Source of the DNA: a virus
Direction: 5' to 3' (one strand)
IMG/VR virus record: IMGVR_UViG_3300020463_000133
Coordinates: 1 to 23,825 of that record
Length of the DNA: 23,825 nt
Below the pieces are notes generated by a model. It was not told where the DNA came from. It made no database searches and worked only from the letters and a program-made list of their open reading frames with translations. The number at the start of each line of letters is the position of its first letter. Within the stretch, counting starts at the first letter, position 1. The translations under genes were made by a program, and so were the position numbers. Shown piece after piece: positions 11,540-23,825 of this stretch.

Positions 11540-12445
11540 TTATAAGGTTACAATCATTGTCGCAAGAGCTTCAGGCTTAACGACTTTATAGCCGTAAACT
11601 TGAAGACCACGAATGATGTTTCCAAAAGTTGTTTCAGAACGAATAGTTTCCATATTTGTCATCTGTGATGCAAATGTGAATCCCATTGAATGTCCACCAA
11701 GTACGCTAAACTCACTACCACTTTTTACAAGGTTGTGAGAAACATAAACAGTGAAACGGTCAATCATACCAAGTCTACCGTTTCTCAATGGTGTGTTTCC
11801 ATCACCAGTGATAGACGCGTCTTTAAGGTCTGATTGTTTGATTAGACCAGCCATCTTAGCAGGAATCACTAGAAAGCGATTACCTTCAGGACAGTTAGCT
11901 TCATCAAGGACTGTTCCCATGTCAACGATTTTACCAATTACATTAGAAGTGGTAAGCGCTTCAGGAGTACCTGCTACACCAAGATCAATATCACCAGAGA
12001 TTGCTCCAGCTGTTTGACCTTTGTTGTTTGCGGATACACCAGTCAGAACATCAGCCAAAACCCTTTGGTCAATTTTGATCTTCATACGCTCGGAAGCGTC
12101 TTTAGACCACATGTCCATTAGATTCATGTCTGTCTGCACTTGGTCAACATCGTCTTCGACACAGGCAAAGTATTCACCTTTATCAATTACGAGTTGTAGT
12201 TTAGCCTTGTCAGGATTCTCTACAGATAGAGTTTGACCCTTAACATAGGTTTGGATAGTGATCTCAGGAGTGGTTCGGATATTAACCGTATCACCCATAT
12301 TTCTGATCTCACCTTCGTAGTCAGTGTTTGAGATTGCTGCGAGCACTGTAGCATCGTAGAAATTCTCAATTAGTTTTCCCGACCAGATTTCAGGAATGAA
12401 ATTTCCTGTATATGCTGGGCTACCGGGAGATGTTGCGTAAGCCAT
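11540..12445 (-). CDS. Major capsid (coat) protein, P22/HK97-fold type
   Basis: A 301-residue protein that should form the icosahedral shell. Supporting sequence: NFIPEIWSGKLIENFYDATV near the start, MGDTVNIRTTPEITIQTYVK (about 52-71), the E-loop-like LQLVIDKGEYFACVEDDVDQ, a long helix MWSKDASERMKIKIDQRVLA, and an end (IRGLQVYGYKVVKPEALATM) typical of this coat family. It has no prohead-protease-type delta domain, consistent with a separate scaffold. The ribosome site is very strong (AAGGAGG five bases before the ATG), as expected for the most abundant virion protein. The scaffold gene lies just upstream and the decoration-type gene just downstream. Confidence 0.93.
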   Translation of the reverse strand: MAYATSPGSPAYTGNFIPEIWSGKLIENFYDATVLAAISNTDYEGEIRNMGDTVNIRTTPEITIQTYVKGQTLSVENPDKAKLQLVIDKGEYFACVEDDVDQVQTDMNLMDMWSKDASERMKIKIDQRVLADVLTGVSANNKGQTAGAISGDIDLGVAGTPEALTTSNVIGKIVDMGTVLDEANCPEGNRFLVIPAKMAGLIKQSDLKDASITGDGNTPLRNGRLGMIDRFTVYVSHNLVKSGSEFSVLGGHSMGFTFASQMTNMETIRSETTFGNIIRGLQVYGYKVVKPEALATMIVTL

Positions 12446-13513: not shown

Positions 13514-13735
13514 TCATTTTGACTTTGCTGAAATTGTTTCAGGGGACTGTTTTATTAGTTTAGTAACTTCTGACAAAACCTGACACCGCCCCTGTGCAAG
13601 TGCTGTGTTTTGCAAGACACTTGGTAGCGTCTGTAGTTCGTGATCACGCCATTCCTGTAGCCAATTAAGCACTTCAGGATATTGACGACACACTACTGCT
13701 AAAGACTGAATAACCTCTGGTTTTGGATTTATCAT
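13514..13735 (-). CDS. Small hypothetical protein between portal and scaffold
   Basis: A 73-residue protein, mostly helical and polar, starting INPKPEVIQSLAVVCRQYPE with WLQEWRDHELQTLP in the middle and a Lys/Ser-rich end. Its ATG overlaps the portal stop by four bases (ATGA), so it is coupled to portal synthesis. Two cysteines (C16, C52) are present without a metal-site pattern. Small helical genes at this spot recur in marine podoviruses, but I know no function; a portal or scaffold cofactor is possible. Confidence 0.7.
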   Translation of the reverse strand: MINPKPEVIQSLAVVCRQYPEVLNWLQEWRDHELQTLPSVLQNTALAQGRCQVLSEVTKLIKQSPETISAKSK

Positions 13736-15765
13736 CCAGCACCTCCAGTGTCACGGTTACTCACTGTATTGCCATCCATCCCTCCTTTAGGGGAACCGTC
13801 CGGTTGAGTTGGTGCGGGCTGCTGAGCTTGCTGTTGAGCTTGCATCTGCGCCGTTACTTTATCTTGGAACCGTTCTTTCTCCCTAGATGGAACAATGTCA
13901 TCTACAGGCATTTGCAATCCTTTAGCCACTTCACGAAGTATCGCTGCACGGCCTTCCTTACCAACAATTTGCATATCAACTTCGTTGGCGGTTGCATTAA
14001 GAAACTCTATACGGCGAACATTTACAGTCTCTTTGACTGCAAGATTAACTGCACCTTTTGGTACAATGTTAACATCGCCTTTAATTGATTCATCCTCATC
14101 ATAACGCATATTGTAAACAAACTGTCTGTAAACAATAGGTTTAATAATCTCATTATCTATGTGCATAACAACTTGGCGTATACCTTTACCAGCTGCACCC
14201 ATTAACATAGACAGACCAGAAGATGTTCTGCCAGCGCCTTGAACATTCAGGTCACCATAAACGTATGATGGTATACCTGAATGATCGTCAGCTAGCTTGG
14301 AGAATTTATCATAAACACCCATTAGTGTGTTTGCATTATCATCCGGTTGTGTAAATCTAACAGCAGGTGCACTAGAACCTAACGGGTCGTTCGTGACTTG
14401 CCAGATTTTCCACGGGTGGAGTTGCGTGATGTCTTCGTTGGGCGGGATTCTTTCGAGGTTAACTTCGACTTGCGGGCCGGAAGATATCCCCATATTGTTG
14501 ACCAAAGCCCTTGCAGCAGCGTTACAAACGTTCTGCAAATCTTCAATAATTTCTGGTATACCTTTACCCCAAAACGCACCGGGGCATTTAATAAACGATG
14601 TTTTAGCATATGGTTTTTCTCCTAACGGGTCGTAGTTTAATACTGCTTTAATAATGTAGTTACCTACGGCCCAAACGTTAGCATCATACTCCTTTGCTTC
14701 ATCAGGTATTTCTTCGTCAGTAAGACCCCATTCTTTTAGCATCTTACCACTTACTTTACCCCAAAACTCTAGGGCATCATAAGTTGTAGTAGGTTTGTTA
14801 AATGTATGAAACTTTCTTTCTTCATGTTCTTTAGAAAGCTCTACATCCTCACTAAACCAAGATGTGCCATTACCAATATCAAGAACGTCCCTGATAGCGT
14901 CTTCGTCATAACCCGGCACACCTATAAGGTCTGCGAGTTCCGAACGACTTAAAGGATGATGTTGAAACAAATAACCATCATTAAGATTAGACAAACCCGG
15001 CTCAGGATATATTCTAAATGGATCAACTCTTTCAAACTCTGGAGCAATAATCTCATCAGCTTCTACAGTAGTCCTACCATTTTCATATTTCCAGCCAAGT
15101 TTTCTTTGTCTACGAACCACAGGGCCTTTTACAAAACCACACGGATAAGTAACCAAATCGGTAACAAACTCATTAAACGATTCACCCCAACCGCCTTGTA
15201 CAAACTGGTCACGGATTTTAATGTCCATTTTCTTTGCACGGTTATCTGCACCTTGCAATAATTTAAAACGGTAATCTTGTGTTACCATTTCTTTTAATTC
15301 AATCATTTCTTGTTGAGTAGGTGCTTGCCCGTTCACCTCAACAAGCTTTACAACTTGCTCAGCAAACGAGTTTTCTATCTCTGCTGTCTGTTGTGGTGAC
15401 AAGTCAGGTATAGGTGTAGGCTCTAAACCCCACGGGGGAGAACCTTGATCAAGAAGAATATCACGCAACCAGCTTTCTGCCGCACGACATTTAACTTCTG
15501 TAATCATCATATAAACATCAGACCCACCTTGTTGGTTAATCTGTGCTAACTTATCTGCCTCATACTCTCCGTTTCTTTGACGGAGTGCTTTTAACATAAT
15601 ATTCTCGATAGGCTTCTTCGCCATTCTAGCGGCGTCCCAACAAGTTCGTAGGTGATCTGACAAACCCAAAATAAGAGGTTGGTTCTGCCTGTCAGCTAAC
15701 TGTTGTTTAGTAAGAGCTTCTTCCTGCTTTACTAATTCTTCATTTCCTACGACTTGTAATACCAT
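13732..15765 (-). CDS. Portal protein
   Basis: A 677-residue protein forming the dodecameric ring at the packaging vertex. Evidence: length in the podovirus portal range; an N-terminal helical region with WDAARMAKKPIENIMLKALR; the stem/wing block QFVQGGWGESFNEFVTDLVT followed by YPCGFVKGPVVRRQRKLGWK; PEFERVDPFRIYPEPG (typical portal VDP-x-RIYP); a clip-like region KTSFIKCPGAFWGKGIPEII; AGRTSSGLSMLMGAAGKGIR before the last helical part; and a Gln/Pro-rich disordered tail (about 635-677). TSSGLSMLM near HIDNEIIKPIVYRQF is characteristic of P22-like podovirus portals. It is coupled to the small gene downstream and sits one base from the gene upstream. Confidence 0.92.
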   Translation of the reverse strand: MVLQVVGNEELVKQEEALTKQQLADRQNQPLILGLSDHLRTCWDAARMAKKPIENIMLKALRQRNGEYEADKLAQINQQGGSDVYMMITEVKCRAAESWLRDILLDQGSPPWGLEPTPIPDLSPQQTAEIENSFAEQVVKLVEVNGQAPTQQEMIELKEMVTQDYRFKLLQGADNRAKKMDIKIRDQFVQGGWGESFNEFVTDLVTYPCGFVKGPVVRRQRKLGWKYENGRTTVEADEIIAPEFERVDPFRIYPEPGLSNLNDGYLFQHHPLSRSELADLIGVPGYDEDAIRDVLDIGNGTSWFSEDVELSKEHEERKFHTFNKPTTTYDALEFWGKVSGKMLKEWGLTDEEIPDEAKEYDANVWAVGNYIIKAVLNYDPLGEKPYAKTSFIKCPGAFWGKGIPEIIEDLQNVCNAAARALVNNMGISSGPQVEVNLERIPPNEDITQLHPWKIWQVTNDPLGSSAPAVRFTQPDDNANTLMGVYDKFSKLADDHSGIPSYVYGDLNVQGAGRTSSGLSMLMGAAGKGIRQVVMHIDNEIIKPIVYRQFVYNMRYDEDESIKGDVNIVPKGAVNLAVKETVNVRRIEFLNATANEVDMQIVGKEGRAAILREVAKGLQMPVDDIVPSREKERFQDKVTAQMQAQQQAQQPAPTQPDGSPKGGMDGNTVSNRDTGGAG

Positions 15766-16133: not shown

Positions 16134-17513
16134 TCAAGTCCATCCTCCTGCCGCAACCCTTTTTATTTCACGGCGTTGTACAATGAACCCACCCTCACCT
16201 GCACTACCAACGTGCAGCATAAGGTATTGTAGCGCTTCTGCTACATGCGAGTGTTTATTTTTATCAATATTGCCATTCTTATAGTGGAATCTGTATCCTC
16301 CCATCATTGCAGCCTTTAACTGCGTACATCTGGGATCAACTAAAAACGCTGAATCCCCATCGACTTGCCTCATAAGGAAGTCGTCTACCGCAGATAATCG
16401 CGCAGACACGTTATTGGTTTTAGCAGGGAGAACTCTAAAACCTTCGGCCTTTATGATATCCACGGCAGACCTCTCGTCAGTTTGTGCACGTTGCACTCCT
16501 GCAGGGTCTGTAATGATTAAGATTGGTGCGCCCGAGAACCTTTCGGTCAACAGCGGGCGCAGAATGGTGCGGACGAATCGTTGAATACCCATATCGAAAC
16601 TAACAGCCTCATCGAGAATCAGGACTCGTCCGCGAGGGTCTTGTTGCCCTATAACTGCTGCTGGTGTCAAGCCTAAATCTATTCCAATTACAATAGGCCG
16701 CACACCATTAATTATAGGTCTAAGTTTTGCATGCCCCATATGATAGTCTGCTTTGAAGTATTTATATACAGGCTGACCTGCAGAGCTTAACCCATACTCG
16801 CCGTCTATATACACACGGACATATTCGTCTGATCTACCTTGGGTGTCGTAATAGCCTTCGGGCAGGTTTTCAACATTTTCTGCCAAGGAGCTTCTGCCCG
16901 AAGGTTGTTTGAATACATCCCACCCATTATCGTTCGGACTGACTCCATCTTTAGAATCTAAACCTTCCATTTGATAATACCACCATGTATCCATAGTCGG
17001 AGGGTTTGTATCCCCCCACATCCCAAACCATGAAGGGCCACCATCTTTAGATGACGGGAATCGCCCTATACGTTTAGACATAGCGTCAACAATGTCAGGG
17101 TTGATATCCCTGCACTCGTTAAACCATGCAAACGTTAATTCTAATGAGTTCAAGTTTGCAACATCGTCAGAGTCATCAAGAGCACGAAACATAATCTCAC
17201 ACTCTATATCTCCAACCTTGAAGAAATATGTTTTGGTAGTACGCATGTAGTCTCCGCATATTCCGGGCGGAAACCAATCGTGAAAAGTTTTAATAGTCGT
17301 ATCTTGTAACTGTCTTGCAGTCTCACGAACAATAGCTACTCGTGATTTACGGATTCCTTGTTTGTTAGGCTTCTGCATTGTAGCTCGTCTGATAACTTCA
17401 AAACAACTTGCTACTGACTTACCCGAACCAACAGGCCCCATAAGCACACGCATCTTTGCGTCTGATGTCATAAACTCCTTACATACTTTAGAAGGTGTAT
17501 AATCTATTTCCAT
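16134..17513 (-). CDS. terL: Terminase large subunit (packaging ATPase/nuclease)
   Basis: A 459-residue motor that pumps DNA through the portal and cuts concatemers. Walker A is GPVGSGKS at 26-33. The Walker B/catalytic-Glu segment is LELTFAWFNECRD (124-136, with E133). The ATPase coupling region includes MWGDTNPPTMDTWWY (165-179). The RNase H-like nuclease follows: D279 in IVIGIDLGLTPAAVIG, D336 in ILIITDPAG, and the third acidic site in KHSHVAEALQYL, where E426 takes the place usually held by Asp. Length and motif order fit the podovirus terminase family. It is read after the zinc-ribbon gene with no gap and followed by a terminator. Confidence 0.95.
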   Translation of the reverse strand: MEIDYTPSKVCKEFMTSDAKMRVLMGPVGSGKSVASCFEVIRRATMQKPNKQGIRKSRVAIVRETARQLQDTTIKTFHDWFPPGICGDYMRTTKTYFFKVGDIECEIMFRALDDSDDVANLNSLELTFAWFNECRDINPDIVDAMSKRIGRFPSSKDGGPSWFGMWGDTNPPTMDTWWYYQMEGLDSKDGVSPNDNGWDVFKQPSGRSSLAENVENLPEGYYDTQGRSDEYVRVYIDGEYGLSSAGQPVYKYFKADYHMGHAKLRPIINGVRPIVIGIDLGLTPAAVIGQQDPRGRVLILDEAVSFDMGIQRFVRTILRPLLTERFSGAPILIITDPAGVQRAQTDERSAVDIIKAEGFRVLPAKTNNVSARLSAVDDFLMRQVDGDSAFLVDPRCTQLKAAMMGGYRFHYKNGNIDKNKHSHVAEALQYLMLHVGSAGEGGFIVQRREIKRVAAGGWT

Positions 17514-18579: not shown

Positions 18580-18894
18580 ATGAGTAAACTCTTTAGAGGT
18601 AATGTGTCTATAGTCACTGGTTTTACCAAGGCTGGCACTGAGGATATCCGCCTTACAAAGGATATCGAGGGCGCTTTCAATTCAGAAAATACTACTGAGT
18701 TGTTGGCTAAGGCTAAAGAATTGAGCAAGAAGGAAAAGCTTCCGCTCAATACTTGGAGCTTCTACTTCCCTGAAAAGGTGAAGAACGCCGAGCCAGTCTT
18801 ATTGGCTGATAAATTCGGCAAGCCCAAGTTGACTATGCTTCCGCCGATGGCAGGCAAGTCAGCTCCGAAAAGCAAGACACGCAAGCTTGCTTAA
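18580..18894 (+). CDS. Small early protein A (paralogue of the gene at 19982)
   Basis: A 104-residue soluble protein of unknown function. It opens MSKLFRGNVSIVTGF, has IEGAFNSENTTELLAKAKEL in the middle (29-48), then AEPVLLADKFGKPKLTML (70-87) and a basic Ser/Lys/Pro tail. The gene at 19982-20290 shares the KL-x2-GNV start, the EG-x-FN-x-EN-x2-EL block and the (E/Q)PVLLA...FG...ML end in the same order, so the two are paralogues. It has a strong ribosome site (GGAGG) and is the first rightward gene, so high early expression is likely. DNA binding or a host-takeover role is only a guess; no catalytic motif or metal site is visible. Confidence 0.78.
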   Translation: MSKLFRGNVSIVTGFTKAGTEDIRLTKDIEGAFNSENTTELLAKAKELSKKEKLPLNTWSFYFPEKVKNAEPVLLADKFGKPKLTMLPPMAGKSAPKSKTRKLA

Positions 18895-19366: not shown

Positions 19367-19404
19367 GGGGCTTCGGCCCCTTTCTTTTTTTATTTATTTT
19401 TTTG
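19367..19404 (+). terminator. Strong terminator closing the first early unit
   Basis: GGGGC-TTCG-GCCCC (19367-19380), a perfect 5-bp stem with a UUCG loop, followed by TTTCTTTTTTTATTTATTTTTTT. It lies five bases after the stop of the third early gene and is one of the two clearest rightward terminators in the window. Confidence 0.85.
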
Positions 19405-19946: not shown

Positions 19947-19981
19947 GTGTACCAATGATCTTAACACAAAGGAGGTATATC

Positions 19982-20290
19982 ATGGGTAAGTTATATGAAG
20001 GTAATGTAGAACTGTTTGCTAACCACAAGACTAAGAAGGTTAACATCCGTCCTAACCCCGAGGGTAAGTTCAACAAGGAGAACGTATCCGAGTTGTACAA
20101 CAAGATGAAAGAGCATGCTACTAAGTTGAAGTATGAGATGAACTTGTTTGTACCCGATGCTAACAAAGCAGAACAACCTGTGCTGTTGGCTAGTCTGAGG
20201 TTTGGAGGTAAGCCTTACTTGGCTATGTTGGAGAAGCGTGATCTTTCAACAGCACCATCAAGGAAGAGTGACATTGAAGTCCTATCCTAA
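19982..20290 (+). CDS. Small early protein B (paralogue of the gene at 18580)
   Basis: A 102-residue protein from the ATG at 19982, chosen because AAAGGAGG lies seven bases upstream; an in-frame ATG at 19955 has no ribosome site. It matches early protein A in order: MGKLYEGNV start, PEGKFNKENVSELYNKMKEH (24-43), AEQPVLLASLRFGGKPYLAM and a short basic tail. The acidic/basic helical middle is conserved in type. No catalytic motif. It is isolated by the non-coding region on the left and a strong terminator on the right, so it is probably expressed as an abundant single-gene transcript, with read-through feeding the operon behind it. Confidence 0.8.
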   Translation: MGKLYEGNVELFANHKTKKVNIRPNPEGKFNKENVSELYNKMKEHATKLKYEMNLFVPDANKAEQPVLLASLRFGGKPYLAMLEKRDLSTAPSRKSDIEVLS

Positions 20291-20300
20291 ACATTCATTG

Positions 20301-20333
20301 GAGAGCATGGGTAACACCATGCTCTCTTTTTTT
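20301..20333 (+). terminator. Strong terminator after early protein B
   Basis: GAGAGCATGG / CCATGCTCTC, a perfect 10-bp stem around GTAACA, followed by seven T. It ends 18 bases before the next gene, leaving no room for an obvious separate promoter, so some read-through is expected. Confidence 0.88.
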
Positions 20334-20855: not shown

Positions 20856-21039
20856 GGCTACGTTGAAACTCTTCATGCTACGACAGCATCAAGGTGGAGT
20901 ACCAGTACGAGATGATAAGGGCGACATCATCTTCTACTCAGATAAGCAGGTCGCCAAGAAGACTAGGGTAGGCAAACAAGTCGTATCCTATGGCTTTGAC
21001 CATCGCAGATATAACCATAACAGAAAGGAAGGTGCGTAA
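20848..21039 (+). CDS. Small basic protein before the AAA+ gene
   Basis: A 63-residue, strongly basic protein (TLKLFMLRQHQGGVPVRDDK, then KQVAKKTRVGKQVVSYGFDH and RRYNHNRKEG). It has an AGAAGGAG ribosome site and its stop overlaps the AAA+ start (TAATG). No membrane segment or cysteine. The charge suggests nucleic-acid binding or an adaptor to the ATPase; I recognise no family. Confidence 0.7.
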   Translation: MTKATLKLFMLRQHQGGVPVRDDKGDIIFYSDKQVAKKTRVGKQVVSYGFDHRRYNHNRKEGA

Positions 21040-22031
21040 TGCGAGCAACATTGTTGAAGGAAACTATTAAGAACCTGTTCCCAATCAAGAGGACTATCGC
21101 TATCGAAGGTAGCCCGGGTGGAGGTAAGACAACCATCGTGCAAGAAGTTGCCAAGGAACTTGGTATCGGATACATCGAGAAGCATATGCCAACCATGTTG
21201 GTGGAGGACTTTGGTATCCTCTATCCTAATGGTGATGACATGCTTCACTACAAGCTACCCGATTGGTTTCCATACGAAGGCAGGACTGACATACCCGATG
21301 AAGGTATCCTGTGTTTCGATGACAGAAACCAAGCAGGTGCAGACTTGCAGAAGGTGTTGGCTAACATCTGTCAAGCTAGGAATCTACATGGCAAGCCAAT
21401 GAAGAAGGGTTGGATGGTCGTGTCTACTGGTAACAGACAGGCAGACAGGGCAGGTGCTAACAGAGTGCTATCTCACTTGCGTAATCGTGAGACTGTGTAT
21501 GAGTTGGAGACACACCTTGATGACTGGACATCATGGGCGATTGACCACGGAGTAAAACCTGTTGTCATATCATTCATTCGATTCCGTACTGCATTGCTAC
21601 ATGACTTTGATCCACAGAGAGATGTGAACCCATCGCCTCGTAGTTGGGTTGAAGGTGTTGCTGACATGATTGGTGTCGTACCACCCGAAGCAGAGTACGA
21701 GACATTCAAGGGTGCTGTTGGCGAAGGATGTGCCGCAGAGTTTACTGGCTTTCTAAAGATCGAACGTAAGCTACCCAACCCCGACACAATCATTCAGTCA
21801 CCAATGTCTGTGACTGTACCCGATGATCCTGCTACTTGCTATGCACTTACTGGTGCATTGGGCGAGAGAGCAACCACGGAAAACTTTGGTAACATTGTGA
21901 AGTTCGCTGAGCGTATGTCACCCGAGTTCTCTGTTCTATGTGTCTCGTATGCTAGTCGTAAGAACCCCGACCTTGCATCACACGAGGCATTCACCAAGTG
22001 GGCTATCGCTCACCAAGATGTTTTATTTTAA
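21039..22031 (+). CDS. MoxR-type AAA+ ATPase
   Basis: A 330-residue ATPase. Walker A is GSPGGGKT (24-31), followed by IVQEVAKELGIGYIEKHMPT. Walker B is ILCFDDRNQAG (90-100), with Asp at the position usually held by the catalytic Glu (FDE becomes FDD). Sensor 1 is VVSTGNRQADRAG (127-139, N132), with an RVLSHLRNRE segment following as in MoxR-family proteins, and DPQRDVNPSPRSWVEGVADM in the lid. MoxR ATPases remodel or mature partner proteins with a VWA protein; here both a DUF3150-like and a VWA/metallopeptidase gene follow in the same operon. The TAATG start is coupled to the preceding gene. Confidence 0.9.
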   Translation: MRATLLKETIKNLFPIKRTIAIEGSPGGGKTTIVQEVAKELGIGYIEKHMPTMLVEDFGILYPNGDDMLHYKLPDWFPYEGRTDIPDEGILCFDDRNQAGADLQKVLANICQARNLHGKPMKKGWMVVSTGNRQADRAGANRVLSHLRNRETVYELETHLDDWTSWAIDHGVKPVVISFIRFRTALLHDFDPQRDVNPSPRSWVEGVADMIGVVPPEAEYETFKGAVGEGCAAEFTGFLKIERKLPNPDTIIQSPMSVTVPDDPATCYALTGALGERATTENFGNIVKFAERMSPEFSVLCVSYASRKNPDLASHEAFTKWAIAHQDVLF

Positions 22032-22042
22032 TGGAGGTAACT

Positions 22043-22894
22043 ATGAAACTAAGTGATAAAGCATTGTTAGTTCAGTTGGGTATATCCCAATGGACTGCAA
22101 GAAAGTACGACAAGCGAGCCACCGAACAGGTGGCTCAACAGAATGGTAGTGCAACACAAGCAGGTAGATACAACAAGTCGTTGTTACCTATGAATGATGC
22201 ACTCAATAACATACATCAGAAGTCTACTCTGATTCGTAAGAAGTTCTATGCGAACACCTTACCTTGGGGTATCGAAGGCACGATGATGTTACCATCTGCT
22301 AACTACCTAAACTTTATGACCGAGTTTAGGAAAGAGAAGGGTGATTGGCAATTACTTGTAGATACATTCTACCAAGAGTATCCAAGACTGCATGCAGATG
22401 CACAGAGATTCCTTGGTAATCTGTACAACAAGAATGATTACCCTGCTCTTCACGATATCCAACGTAAGTTCAAGATGGACATGGCTGTGTTTCCAGTACC
22501 ATCGAATGACTTCCGAGTGAGTATCGGTGACGAAGAGTTGGCTAAGATACAGCAAGATGTTGAGGCACGAGTTGAATCCTCTGCACAGCAGGCTATGGAA
22601 GAAGCTTGGCAGAGATTGTATGACCGAGTGAAACATATGGCTGAGAAACTTGCTGACCCTAAGTCTGTGTTCAGAGATACATTGGTAGAGAATACCAAGG
22701 AAGTCTGTTCAATACTTAGTCGGCTTAACTTTGCTGACGACCCTAACTTGGAAGCCATGCGACAACAAGTTGAGGGGAGTTTGGCTAACAACCACCCTGA
22801 ATCATTGCGTAATGACCCCGACCTCAGACGTACCAAGGCTGAGGAAGCGAAGGCTATTATGGATAAGATGGGTGCATTTATGGGAGGTAAATGA
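22043..22894 (+). CDS. DUF3150-like helical protein of the MoxR-VWA operon
   Basis: A 283-residue helical protein from the ATG at 22043, six bases after GGAGG; an upstream in-frame ATG at 21998 lies inside the ATPase gene. It begins MKLSDKALLVQLGISQWTAR and has LPWGIEGTMMLPSANYLNFM (near 74-93). A YPRLHADAQRFLGNLYNKND block and a long coiled helix (IQQDVEARVESSAQQAMEEA, then YDRVKHMAEKLAD) follow. The layout and the place between a MoxR ATPase and a VWA protein match DUF3150 proteins found with such pairs in phages; the family name is from memory. It probably links ATPase and VWA or holds the substrate. It overlaps the next start (ATGATG). Confidence 0.72.
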   Translation: MKLSDKALLVQLGISQWTARKYDKRATEQVAQQNGSATQAGRYNKSLLPMNDALNNIHQKSTLIRKKFYANTLPWGIEGTMMLPSANYLNFMTEFRKEKGDWQLLVDTFYQEYPRLHADAQRFLGNLYNKNDYPALHDIQRKFKMDMAVFPVPSNDFRVSIGDEELAKIQQDVEARVESSAQQAMEEAWQRLYDRVKHMAEKLADPKSVFRDTLVENTKEVCSILSRLNFADDPNLEAMRQQVEGSLANNHPESLRNDPDLRRTKAEEAKAIMDKMGAFMGGK

Positions 22895-23825
22895 TGGAAC
22901 TAGAAAGACGAATCGCCAAGGCAAAGACGGCACTCATACTTGAGCATCCGTTCTTTGGTAACTTGGCAATGAACATGCCCTTTGAATTATCAGAGGATGT
23001 TCCAACTGCGGCTACCAATGGTAGCCGTGTGTTGTTTAACCCTAGCTTTTGTGAGCCATTGAAAGACGAGGAACTATTGTTCCTTGTTGCTCACGAAGTA
23101 TGTCACCCAATGCTTGAACACATCTTTCGATTGAATGGTCGTGACCACAAGCGTTGGAACTATGCAGGTGATGCCGTTATCAATCCAATGCTTGAAGACG
23201 AGGGCATTGGTAGGTTCATCGAAGGTGGTGTCATGGACAGAGACTTACTGCAACGAGGTGGTGGTACTACCGATGGTGTCTACAACTTGTTGCCACCAAT
23301 GCCCGAAGATGGTGATGGTGGGTATGGTGATGGTATGAAACCATACGATGACATCGAAGATGCAGGGGAGGGTTCTTCCCCTGCTGAGATTGAGCAGAAG
23401 AAAGCAGAGTGGAAAGTTAAGGTTGCTCAAGCCGCACAGTCTGCAAAGATGATGGGCAAACTATCAGCAGGACTTGAACGATTCGTTGGTGACTTGATGA
23501 AGCCACGAGTGAATTGGAAAGATGTCATGCAGAGGTTTCTTATCAAGCAACGTACAGACATGAGGACTTGGGCAAGACCGAACAGGAGGTTCTTGTCACA
23601 AGGTATCTACCTACCTAGTGTATCGGGTGAAGCCATTGGTGAACTATGCTTTGCTATCGACACATCGGGTTCGATTGGTGAGGAGGAACTCACTCAGTTT
23701 GCGAGTGAGATTATCAAAGTCTACCAAGACTTATCACCTACCAAGATACATGTGATCTACTTTGATTCTCAAGTCTGTCACTATGATTGTTTTGAAGATG
23801 ATGAGCCAGTCATATCCCCACATGG
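22894..23825 (+). CDS. Metallopeptidase-like plus VWA domain protein (DUF2201 type), 3' end cut by the window
   Basis: A gene open to the window end (about 310 residues visible). The likely start is the second ATG, at 22894, six bases after GGAGG; the first ATG (22891) is also possible. Residues here are numbered from the first Met. The N-terminal domain has zincin-like HEVCH at 68-72 within LVAHEVCHPMLEHIF, then WNYAGDAVINPMLEDEG, the usual set of DUF2201-N domains. A Gly/Asp/Glu-rich linker follows (about 130-170), then helices (VNWKDVMQRFLIKQ). The VWA domain starts GELCFAIDTSGSIGEEELTQ with MIDAS DTSGS at 257-261. VWA proteins of this type are clients or partners of MoxR ATPases. A possible protease activity on host or phage proteins is inferred. 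Confidence 0.85.
   Translation, partial: MELERRIAKAKTALILEHPFFGNLAMNMPFELSEDVPTAATNGSRVLFNPSFCEPLKDEELLFLVAHEVCHPMLEHIFRLNGRDHKRWNYAGDAVINPMLEDEGIGRFIEGGVMDRDLLQRGGGTTDGVYNLLPPMPEDGDGGYGDGMKPYDDIEDAGEGSSPAEIEQKKAEWKVKVAQAAQSAKMMGKLSAGLERFVGDLMKPRVNWKDVMQRFLIKQRTDMRTWARPNRRFLSQGIYLPSVSGEAIGELCFAIDTSGSIGEEELTQFASEIIKVYQDLSPTKIHVIYFDSQVCHYDCFEDDEPVISPH

Follow-up and report, generated by a model that had tools for sequence, protein, structure and literature searches.

What do three adjacent genes, encoding a MoxR-type AAA+ ATPase, a helical protein and a protein that joins a zincin-like domain to a VWA domain, do for the phage that carries them? The question is raised by a viral record of 23.8 kb, the whole of which was analysed (hereafter the window). 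The record has no near match among sequenced phages, and the carrier of the trio is an uncultured phage of a mostly marine lineage. An initial annotation had described the three genes as adjacent and translationally coupled, and all three reading frames are indeed present and open. The trio and its motifs are as follows:

21039-22031, plus strand: gene 1, open reading frame for a MoxR-type AAA+ ATPase of 330 aa
21108-21131, plus strand: Walker A motif GSPGGGKT of the ATPase
21315-21329, plus strand: Walker B motif FDDRN of the ATPase
22043-22894, plus strand: gene 2, predicted helical, DUF3150-like protein of 283 aa, with an ATG start and its stop at 22892-22894
22894..23825, plus strand: gene 3, DUF2201 protein with an N-terminal zincin-like part and a C-terminal VWA domain, cut by the window end
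23092-23106, plus strand: zincin-like motif HEVCH (context AHEVCH)
23164-23184, plus strand: motif A.D..IN
23659-23673, plus strand: VWA MIDAS motif DTSGS

The product of gene 1 matches PHROG 1297 (‘ATPase’) with E=6e-67, and the two Walker motifs on which its assignment to the MoxR type had been based are in place, together with a sensor-1-like TGN and a sensor-2-like SPR. Homologues carry the annotation MoxR family ATPase. Pfam gave generic AAA/AAA_5 matches only, all below threshold, and a PDB sequence search with the ATPase gave nothing useful. The Walker B motif reads FDDRNQA in 69 of 69 contigs. Its layout is like that of the MoxR signature DExNRA, with an Asp where the catalytic Glu stands. 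In the trio ATPases of plasmids and of most genomic loci, DD precedes a G-Q pair (for instance, FIDDLGQA), and LDE is found in the ATPase of phage N4 and in one genomic trio. An Asp in place of the Glu of Walker B could make hydrolysis slower; active AAA+ proteins with a DD Walker B are nevertheless known, DnaC/IstB among them.

The third protein matches PF13203 (DUF2201_N, E=6e-44) and PF09967 (DUF2201, E=1.5e-9), both above the cut-offs. Full-length relatives are about 376 aa long (an example of 376 aa lies at L003:8004-9134), and in these the MIDAS is complete; the window holds its DxSxS part, and the Thr and second Asp lie beyond the window end. We aligned 89 proteins, which represent 77 independent contigs once duplicates are removed. 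Both His and the Glu of the HExxH motif are invariant (89/89 aligned loci, 77/77 independent contigs), and the x positions vary (V/C/I and C/M/F/L/A), which is the pattern expected of selection for zinc chemistry. The MIDAS positions D256, S258, S260, T315 and D339 are likewise invariant in the 89 aligned proteins and 77/77 contigs. Asp93 and Asn97 of the A.D..[IV]N motif downstream of HExxH are invariant in the alignment, and Asp93 is a candidate for the third zinc ligand. In the predicted model, residues 247-376 adopt a VWA fold (Z 12.6 and rmsd 2.6 over 131 residues against vWF A2). A zincin-like nature of the N-terminal half is supported at the sequence level, by PF13203 and by weak SprT-like and M48 similarity; a PDB sequence search with this protein gave nothing useful. 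Thus, the combination of HEVCH and DTSGS in one chain, as proposed in the initial annotation, was confirmed by the DUF2201_N and DUF2201 matches and by the VWA fold of the model.

The reading frame of the middle gene begins at the ATG at 22043, which is preceded by the ribosome-binding site GGAGGT at 22033-22038 and is preferred over an unlikely, mechanically assigned GTG start at 21998. Structure prediction gives a helical protein (pLDDT 79). Searches with this protein found nothing above threshold in Pfam, NCBIfam or PHROG, and Foldseek gave no confident PDB match (best E 0.43). VIA-align Z scores of up to 10.3 were uninformative: they cover the C-terminal helical bundle only (residues ~182-283), and designed bundles are among the matches. 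Its naming as DUF3150-like stood at the superfamily level but not as a direct match, since PF11348 (DUF3150) was found at E<=10 neither in six related phage records nor in the annotated relative MinM2. However, a profile built from the phage middle proteins retrieves relatives in bacterial genomes, and in 7 of 10 of these genomes the PF11348 match at that very position exceeds the cut-off. Because relatives retrieved by the same profile match PF11348 above the cut-off, the middle protein is DUF3150-like at the superfamily level, as judged through these intermediate sequences. It also aligns with its plasmid relatives (hhalign E=1e-43 and 1e-60). A 321-aa gene of CRP-7 that adjoins the VWA gene of that phage was considered as a relative and rejected, as no relationship was detectable (hhalign probability 1.6%). 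No paper mentioning the name DUF3150 was found in the open-licence literature searched.

We then considered whether the three genes belong together. In the window, 11 bp separate the ATPase gene from the middle gene, and the start of the third gene (22894, or 22891) overlaps the stop of the middle gene (..ATGATGGAA..). Among 80 IMG/VR contigs with all three genes, a set freed of duplicates and selected in part by gene 2, order and strand are identical in 80/80. Genes 1 and 2 are separated by a median of 13.5 bp and genes 2 and 3 by a median of 34 bp, with 37 overlaps at the latter junction, where the spacing ranges from overlap up to 480 bp. The translational coupling proposed earlier is therefore apparent in the window, but is not a general property of its relatives: tight coupling is typical, not universal. 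When loci were fetched by the third protein alone, the middle gene was present in 68/68 and the ATPase gene in 49/49 of those with enough upstream DNA, although some of these contigs are common to the 80-contig set. Seen from the ATPase gene, a neighbour with a VWA domain is present in 49/49 loci. Relatives of gene 2 occur in at least 237 IMG/VR stretches and relatives of gene 3 in at least 582. Given the strong family matches (6e-67 for gene 1 and 6e-44 for gene 3) and the co-occurrence, the trio is more than a chance arrangement.

The surroundings of the trio contain the following features:

11540-12445, minus strand: major head protein
13732-15765, minus strand: portal
16134-17513, minus strand: terminase
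19367-19380: terminator-like hairpin upstream of the trio, with a T run after it
20300-20327, plus strand: terminator-like hairpin upstream of the trio, with an 11-pair stem and then a T run (consensus match only)

The plus strand carries small genes from about 18580 and the trio after them, opposite to the structural genes on the minus strand. In the window's relatives, the trio lies upstream of PolA, PD-(D/E)XK nuclease and helicase genes. An early status of the trio would follow from these positions. The hairpins suggest that the trio is either its own transcription unit or is reached by antitermination. A promoter scan of the window remained at chance level (10 found versus 12.3 expected), and Rfam and tRNA scans of the window gave no matches. 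Two of the small proteins, at 18580-18894 and 19955-20290, begin alike (MSKLFRGNVSIV, MGKLYEGNVELF) and are apparent paralogues; neither has a family match. Downstream of the trio, most close relatives contain a gene for an HslV-family (Ntn/proteasome-like) peptidase with a conserved N-terminus, MTVI/MSVI (for example, L003:11297-11755, PHROG 1040, E=7e-23), at a place that lies beyond the window end. Two conserved genes without assigned function (230 and 371 aa) stand between it and the trio in these relatives. This peptidase is possibly a functional partner of the trio.

The trio and its parts are not limited to the lineage of the window. Among phages, it is present in the window's lineage in IMG/VR, in MinM2 and in two Planktothrix phage records, and more than 500 records of sequenced phages contain the ATPase/DUF2201 pair. 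The middle gene is dispensable in some of these, as the pair occurs without it in the three N4-like phages tested (N4, SBP1 and Ab2712) and in the nearest cultured relative, Rhizobium phage RHph_TM3_14A. The gene order of the latter (ATPase, metallopeptidase, PolA, RecB-like, VRR-NUC, helicase) resembles that of the window's relatives. The portal of the window is closest to those of Rhizobium phages of the RHph_TM group and of HMO-2011-type marine phages, and searches for genes 3 and 2 in HMO-2011, CRP-13, HTVC033P and Rollin gave no match. As HMO-2011-type phages have a similar portal and lack the third protein, this protein is not essential to that genome plan.

Outside phages, the trio is present on Burkholderiales plasmids, two loci of which were read in detail; 18 of the 88 plasmid records matching the third protein and 16 of the 44 matching the middle protein are typed conjugative. 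It is also present in bacterial genome contigs (L108, L131, L132 and L133; phylum of the Desulfobacterales MAG). A Tannerella MAG (L107:3701-6873) has the module in the order ATPase, VWA, DUF3150-like middle gene. The L108 locus is probably a prophage, to judge from a portal-like ORF nearby. In the third protein of this Desulfobacterales relative (L108:7270-8496), HExxH is lost (CESVMFLACGH), whereas MIDAS and trio are retained. Cleavage is thus not always needed, which suggests that the core function may be remodelling rather than cleavage.

Several of these elements are already known. In group 2.2 jumbo phages, Iyer et al. (2021; PMC7824862) described a MoxR ATPase whose neighbour is a vWA protein carrying a metallopeptidase domain at its N-terminus. 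The window shares this pair but belongs to a phage group of about 54 kb, its trio also occurs on plasmids, and its lineage has a constant third component, DUF3150-like, where two components were named for the jumbo phages. In N4, gp24 is homologous to the ATPase (profile E=5e-85) and gp25 to the third protein (E=2e-79, with HELWH and DTSGSI), and both genes lie ahead of the helicase and DNA polymerase genes. N4 and its Schitoviridae homologues differ from the window in that N4, SBP1 and Ab2712 lack the middle gene, and the N4 Walker B reads LDEFNSA instead of FDDRNQA. Synechococcus phage MinM2 and the Planktothrix phages (OQ594354, OL906435, PP438419) have MoxR, DUF3150 and VWA genes in the same order as the window, with only 25-30% identity and with small genes inserted between the members. 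Hence, the pair is already known in phages (N4, jumbo phages) and the trio is annotated in the MinM2 group. New are the DUF3150-like protein as a constant third subunit in the window lineage, the absence of the middle gene from the three N4-like phages, the relative without HExxH, and the presence of the trio on plasmids, many of them conjugative, and on integrated elements, a wider range of carriers than described.

The middle-gene family is found near an AAA ATPase in the classical DUF3150 (PF11348) loci of Desulfobacterota elements as well. Two such genes (L138:8156-9034 and L137:9770-10669) lie near a gene for an AAA protein of about 470 aa, Cdc48/FtsH-like by its motifs. These loci differ from the trio in the class of the ATPase, and no trio-type MoxR or DUF2201 gene was found in their flanks, which suggests that DUF3150 proteins may partner AAA ATPases of more than one class.

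NorQ-NorD, CbbQ-CbbO and RavA-ViaA resemble the trio in that a MoxR ATPase has a VWA partner, a likeness that we do not take as membership of those subfamilies. To our knowledge, none of them has a metallopeptidase domain fused to the VWA domain or a DUF3150-like subunit. In NorQD, the MoxR ring grips a finger of the VWA partner and twists it, which opens the client, and MoxR-VWA pairs of known function mostly perform client opening of the metal- or ligand-insertion type (PMC13036017). No experimentally shown function for the ATPase/DUF2201 pair was found in the literature searched, and the main text of the CRISPRi-ART paper mentions neither MoxR nor von Willebrand, ‘phage N4’ or ‘N4gp’.

By analogy to these MoxR-VWA pairs, an ATP-driven remodelling or cleavage machine appears well founded. 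Gene order, family membership, invariant catalytic residues, VWA fold and distribution are observed; from here on we infer complex formation, zinc binding, cleavage, an adaptor role, the timing and the client. The MoxR ATPase would build an AAA+ ring, on which the VWA domain of the third protein would dock, its MIDAS metal gripping an acidic residue of the client, as in NorQ-NorD. ATP turnover would pull or twist the client past the zincin-like domain, which would bind zinc and probably cleave the client, or at least grip it. The DUF3150-like helical protein could serve as the adaptor or scaffold that chooses the client. This client would most likely be a protein of the host or of the element, encountered during establishment of the phage or plasmid, rather than a virion protein. 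We give this account of the trio as one ATP-driven client-remodelling machine about an even chance. Weighing against it are the L108 protein without HExxH, the N4-like phages and RHph_TM3_14A without a middle gene, and the HMO-2011-type phages without the third protein. The families and the idea of remodelling or cleavage in the initial annotation were retained, the latter by analogy, but the module is not new to phages, as N4 gp24/gp25 and the jumbo phage pair (PMC7824862) demonstrate.

An alternative outside this account is that the module is a chaperone of virion assembly with a peptidase, folding or processing structural proteins, as is envisaged for jumbo phages and in analogy with tail development in the Acidianus two-tailed virus. 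Iyer et al. (2021; PMC7824862) proposed virion assembly plus processing for the homologous jumbo phage pair (group 2.2), and the genes for some virion proteins of roseophage RPP1 lie close to the homologues of N4 gp24/gp25 (PMC4193335). However, the trio is also carried by large plasmids, of which many are classed as conjugative or mobilizable, and plasmids make no virions; this speaks against a role confined to making virus particles. Moreover, the trio is grouped with replication genes, away from the structural genes on the other strand, and N4 gp24 and gp25 are middle genes (PMC4193335). Its occurrence on plasmids, its position before replication genes and the middle timing in N4 make a purely structural role less likely, and we consider virion assembly improbable, although phages and plasmids could put the module to different uses.

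The initial annotation had named takeover of a host complex, protein quality control or defence suppression as possible roles. Plasmid occurrence fits such targets better than virion assembly, and proves none of them. Counter-defence, in which the machine would unfold or cleave a host defence protein, is a narrower form of the client-remodelling account. Phages, plasmids and integrated elements have in common that they face host defence on entry, and the distribution is patchy (9 of 395 genomes in one phylum sample, 1 of 395 in another). On the other hand, the trio showed no connection with known anti-defence genes, PADLOC returned generic weak AAA hits only on the window, and the pair is widespread in N4-like phages, which is not the variable occurrence expected of a specific anti-defence gene. 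We regard this narrower form as unlikely.

A further possibility is a metal-insertion or cofactor chaperone like NorQD, CobS-CobT or CbbQO, which would open its client for the passage of a metal or ligand, with a zincin-like domain that only binds metal. This is the usual job of MoxR-VWA pairs of known function (PMC13036017), HExxH is able to bind metal without cleavage, and the L108 locus has the trio without HExxH. However, no chelatase or metalloenzyme genes neighbour the trio in the flanks read, and HExxH is strictly kept in all sequences examined other than L108, so we hold this role to be quite unlikely.

Finally, the third protein is an HNH endonuclease according to the label of PHROG 1314 and to the RefSeq product name of N4 gp25 (NC_008720.1), an identity that is refuted by its domain content, with no HNH family among its Pfam matches and with clear DUF2201_N and DUF2201 matches and a VWA fold, and that we consider practically without a chance. 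In both PHROGs and the RefSeq phage records, the name given to these DUF2201 metallopeptidase-VWA proteins looks like a misannotation. Its likely source is perhaps an insertion like that in phage SBP1, where a separate, true HNH ORF (PF13392) lies between the ATPase and DUF2201 genes. A widely copied database name is thus wrong for this family.

With respect to the client-remodelling account, the constant third subunit in the window lineage, the plasmids, the absence of the middle gene from the N4-like phages and the relative without HExxH favour remodelling of a client at establishment or in early infection, perhaps with cleavage. The plasmid copies provide a testable reason to look past virion assembly, and the gp24/gp25 pair of N4, a laboratory phage, is an easy model for the function of the ATPase and DUF2201 proteins. 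In its most specific form, our tentative and rather doubtful proposal is that the trio is a three-subunit AAA+ unfoldase/metallopeptidase of phages and conjugative plasmids that would target a protein of the host when the element enters, the DUF3150-like protein serving as adaptor for this client. If this were true, the trio would be a general establishment device of mobile elements and not a virion chaperone, with a target such as a defence or DNA-handling complex.
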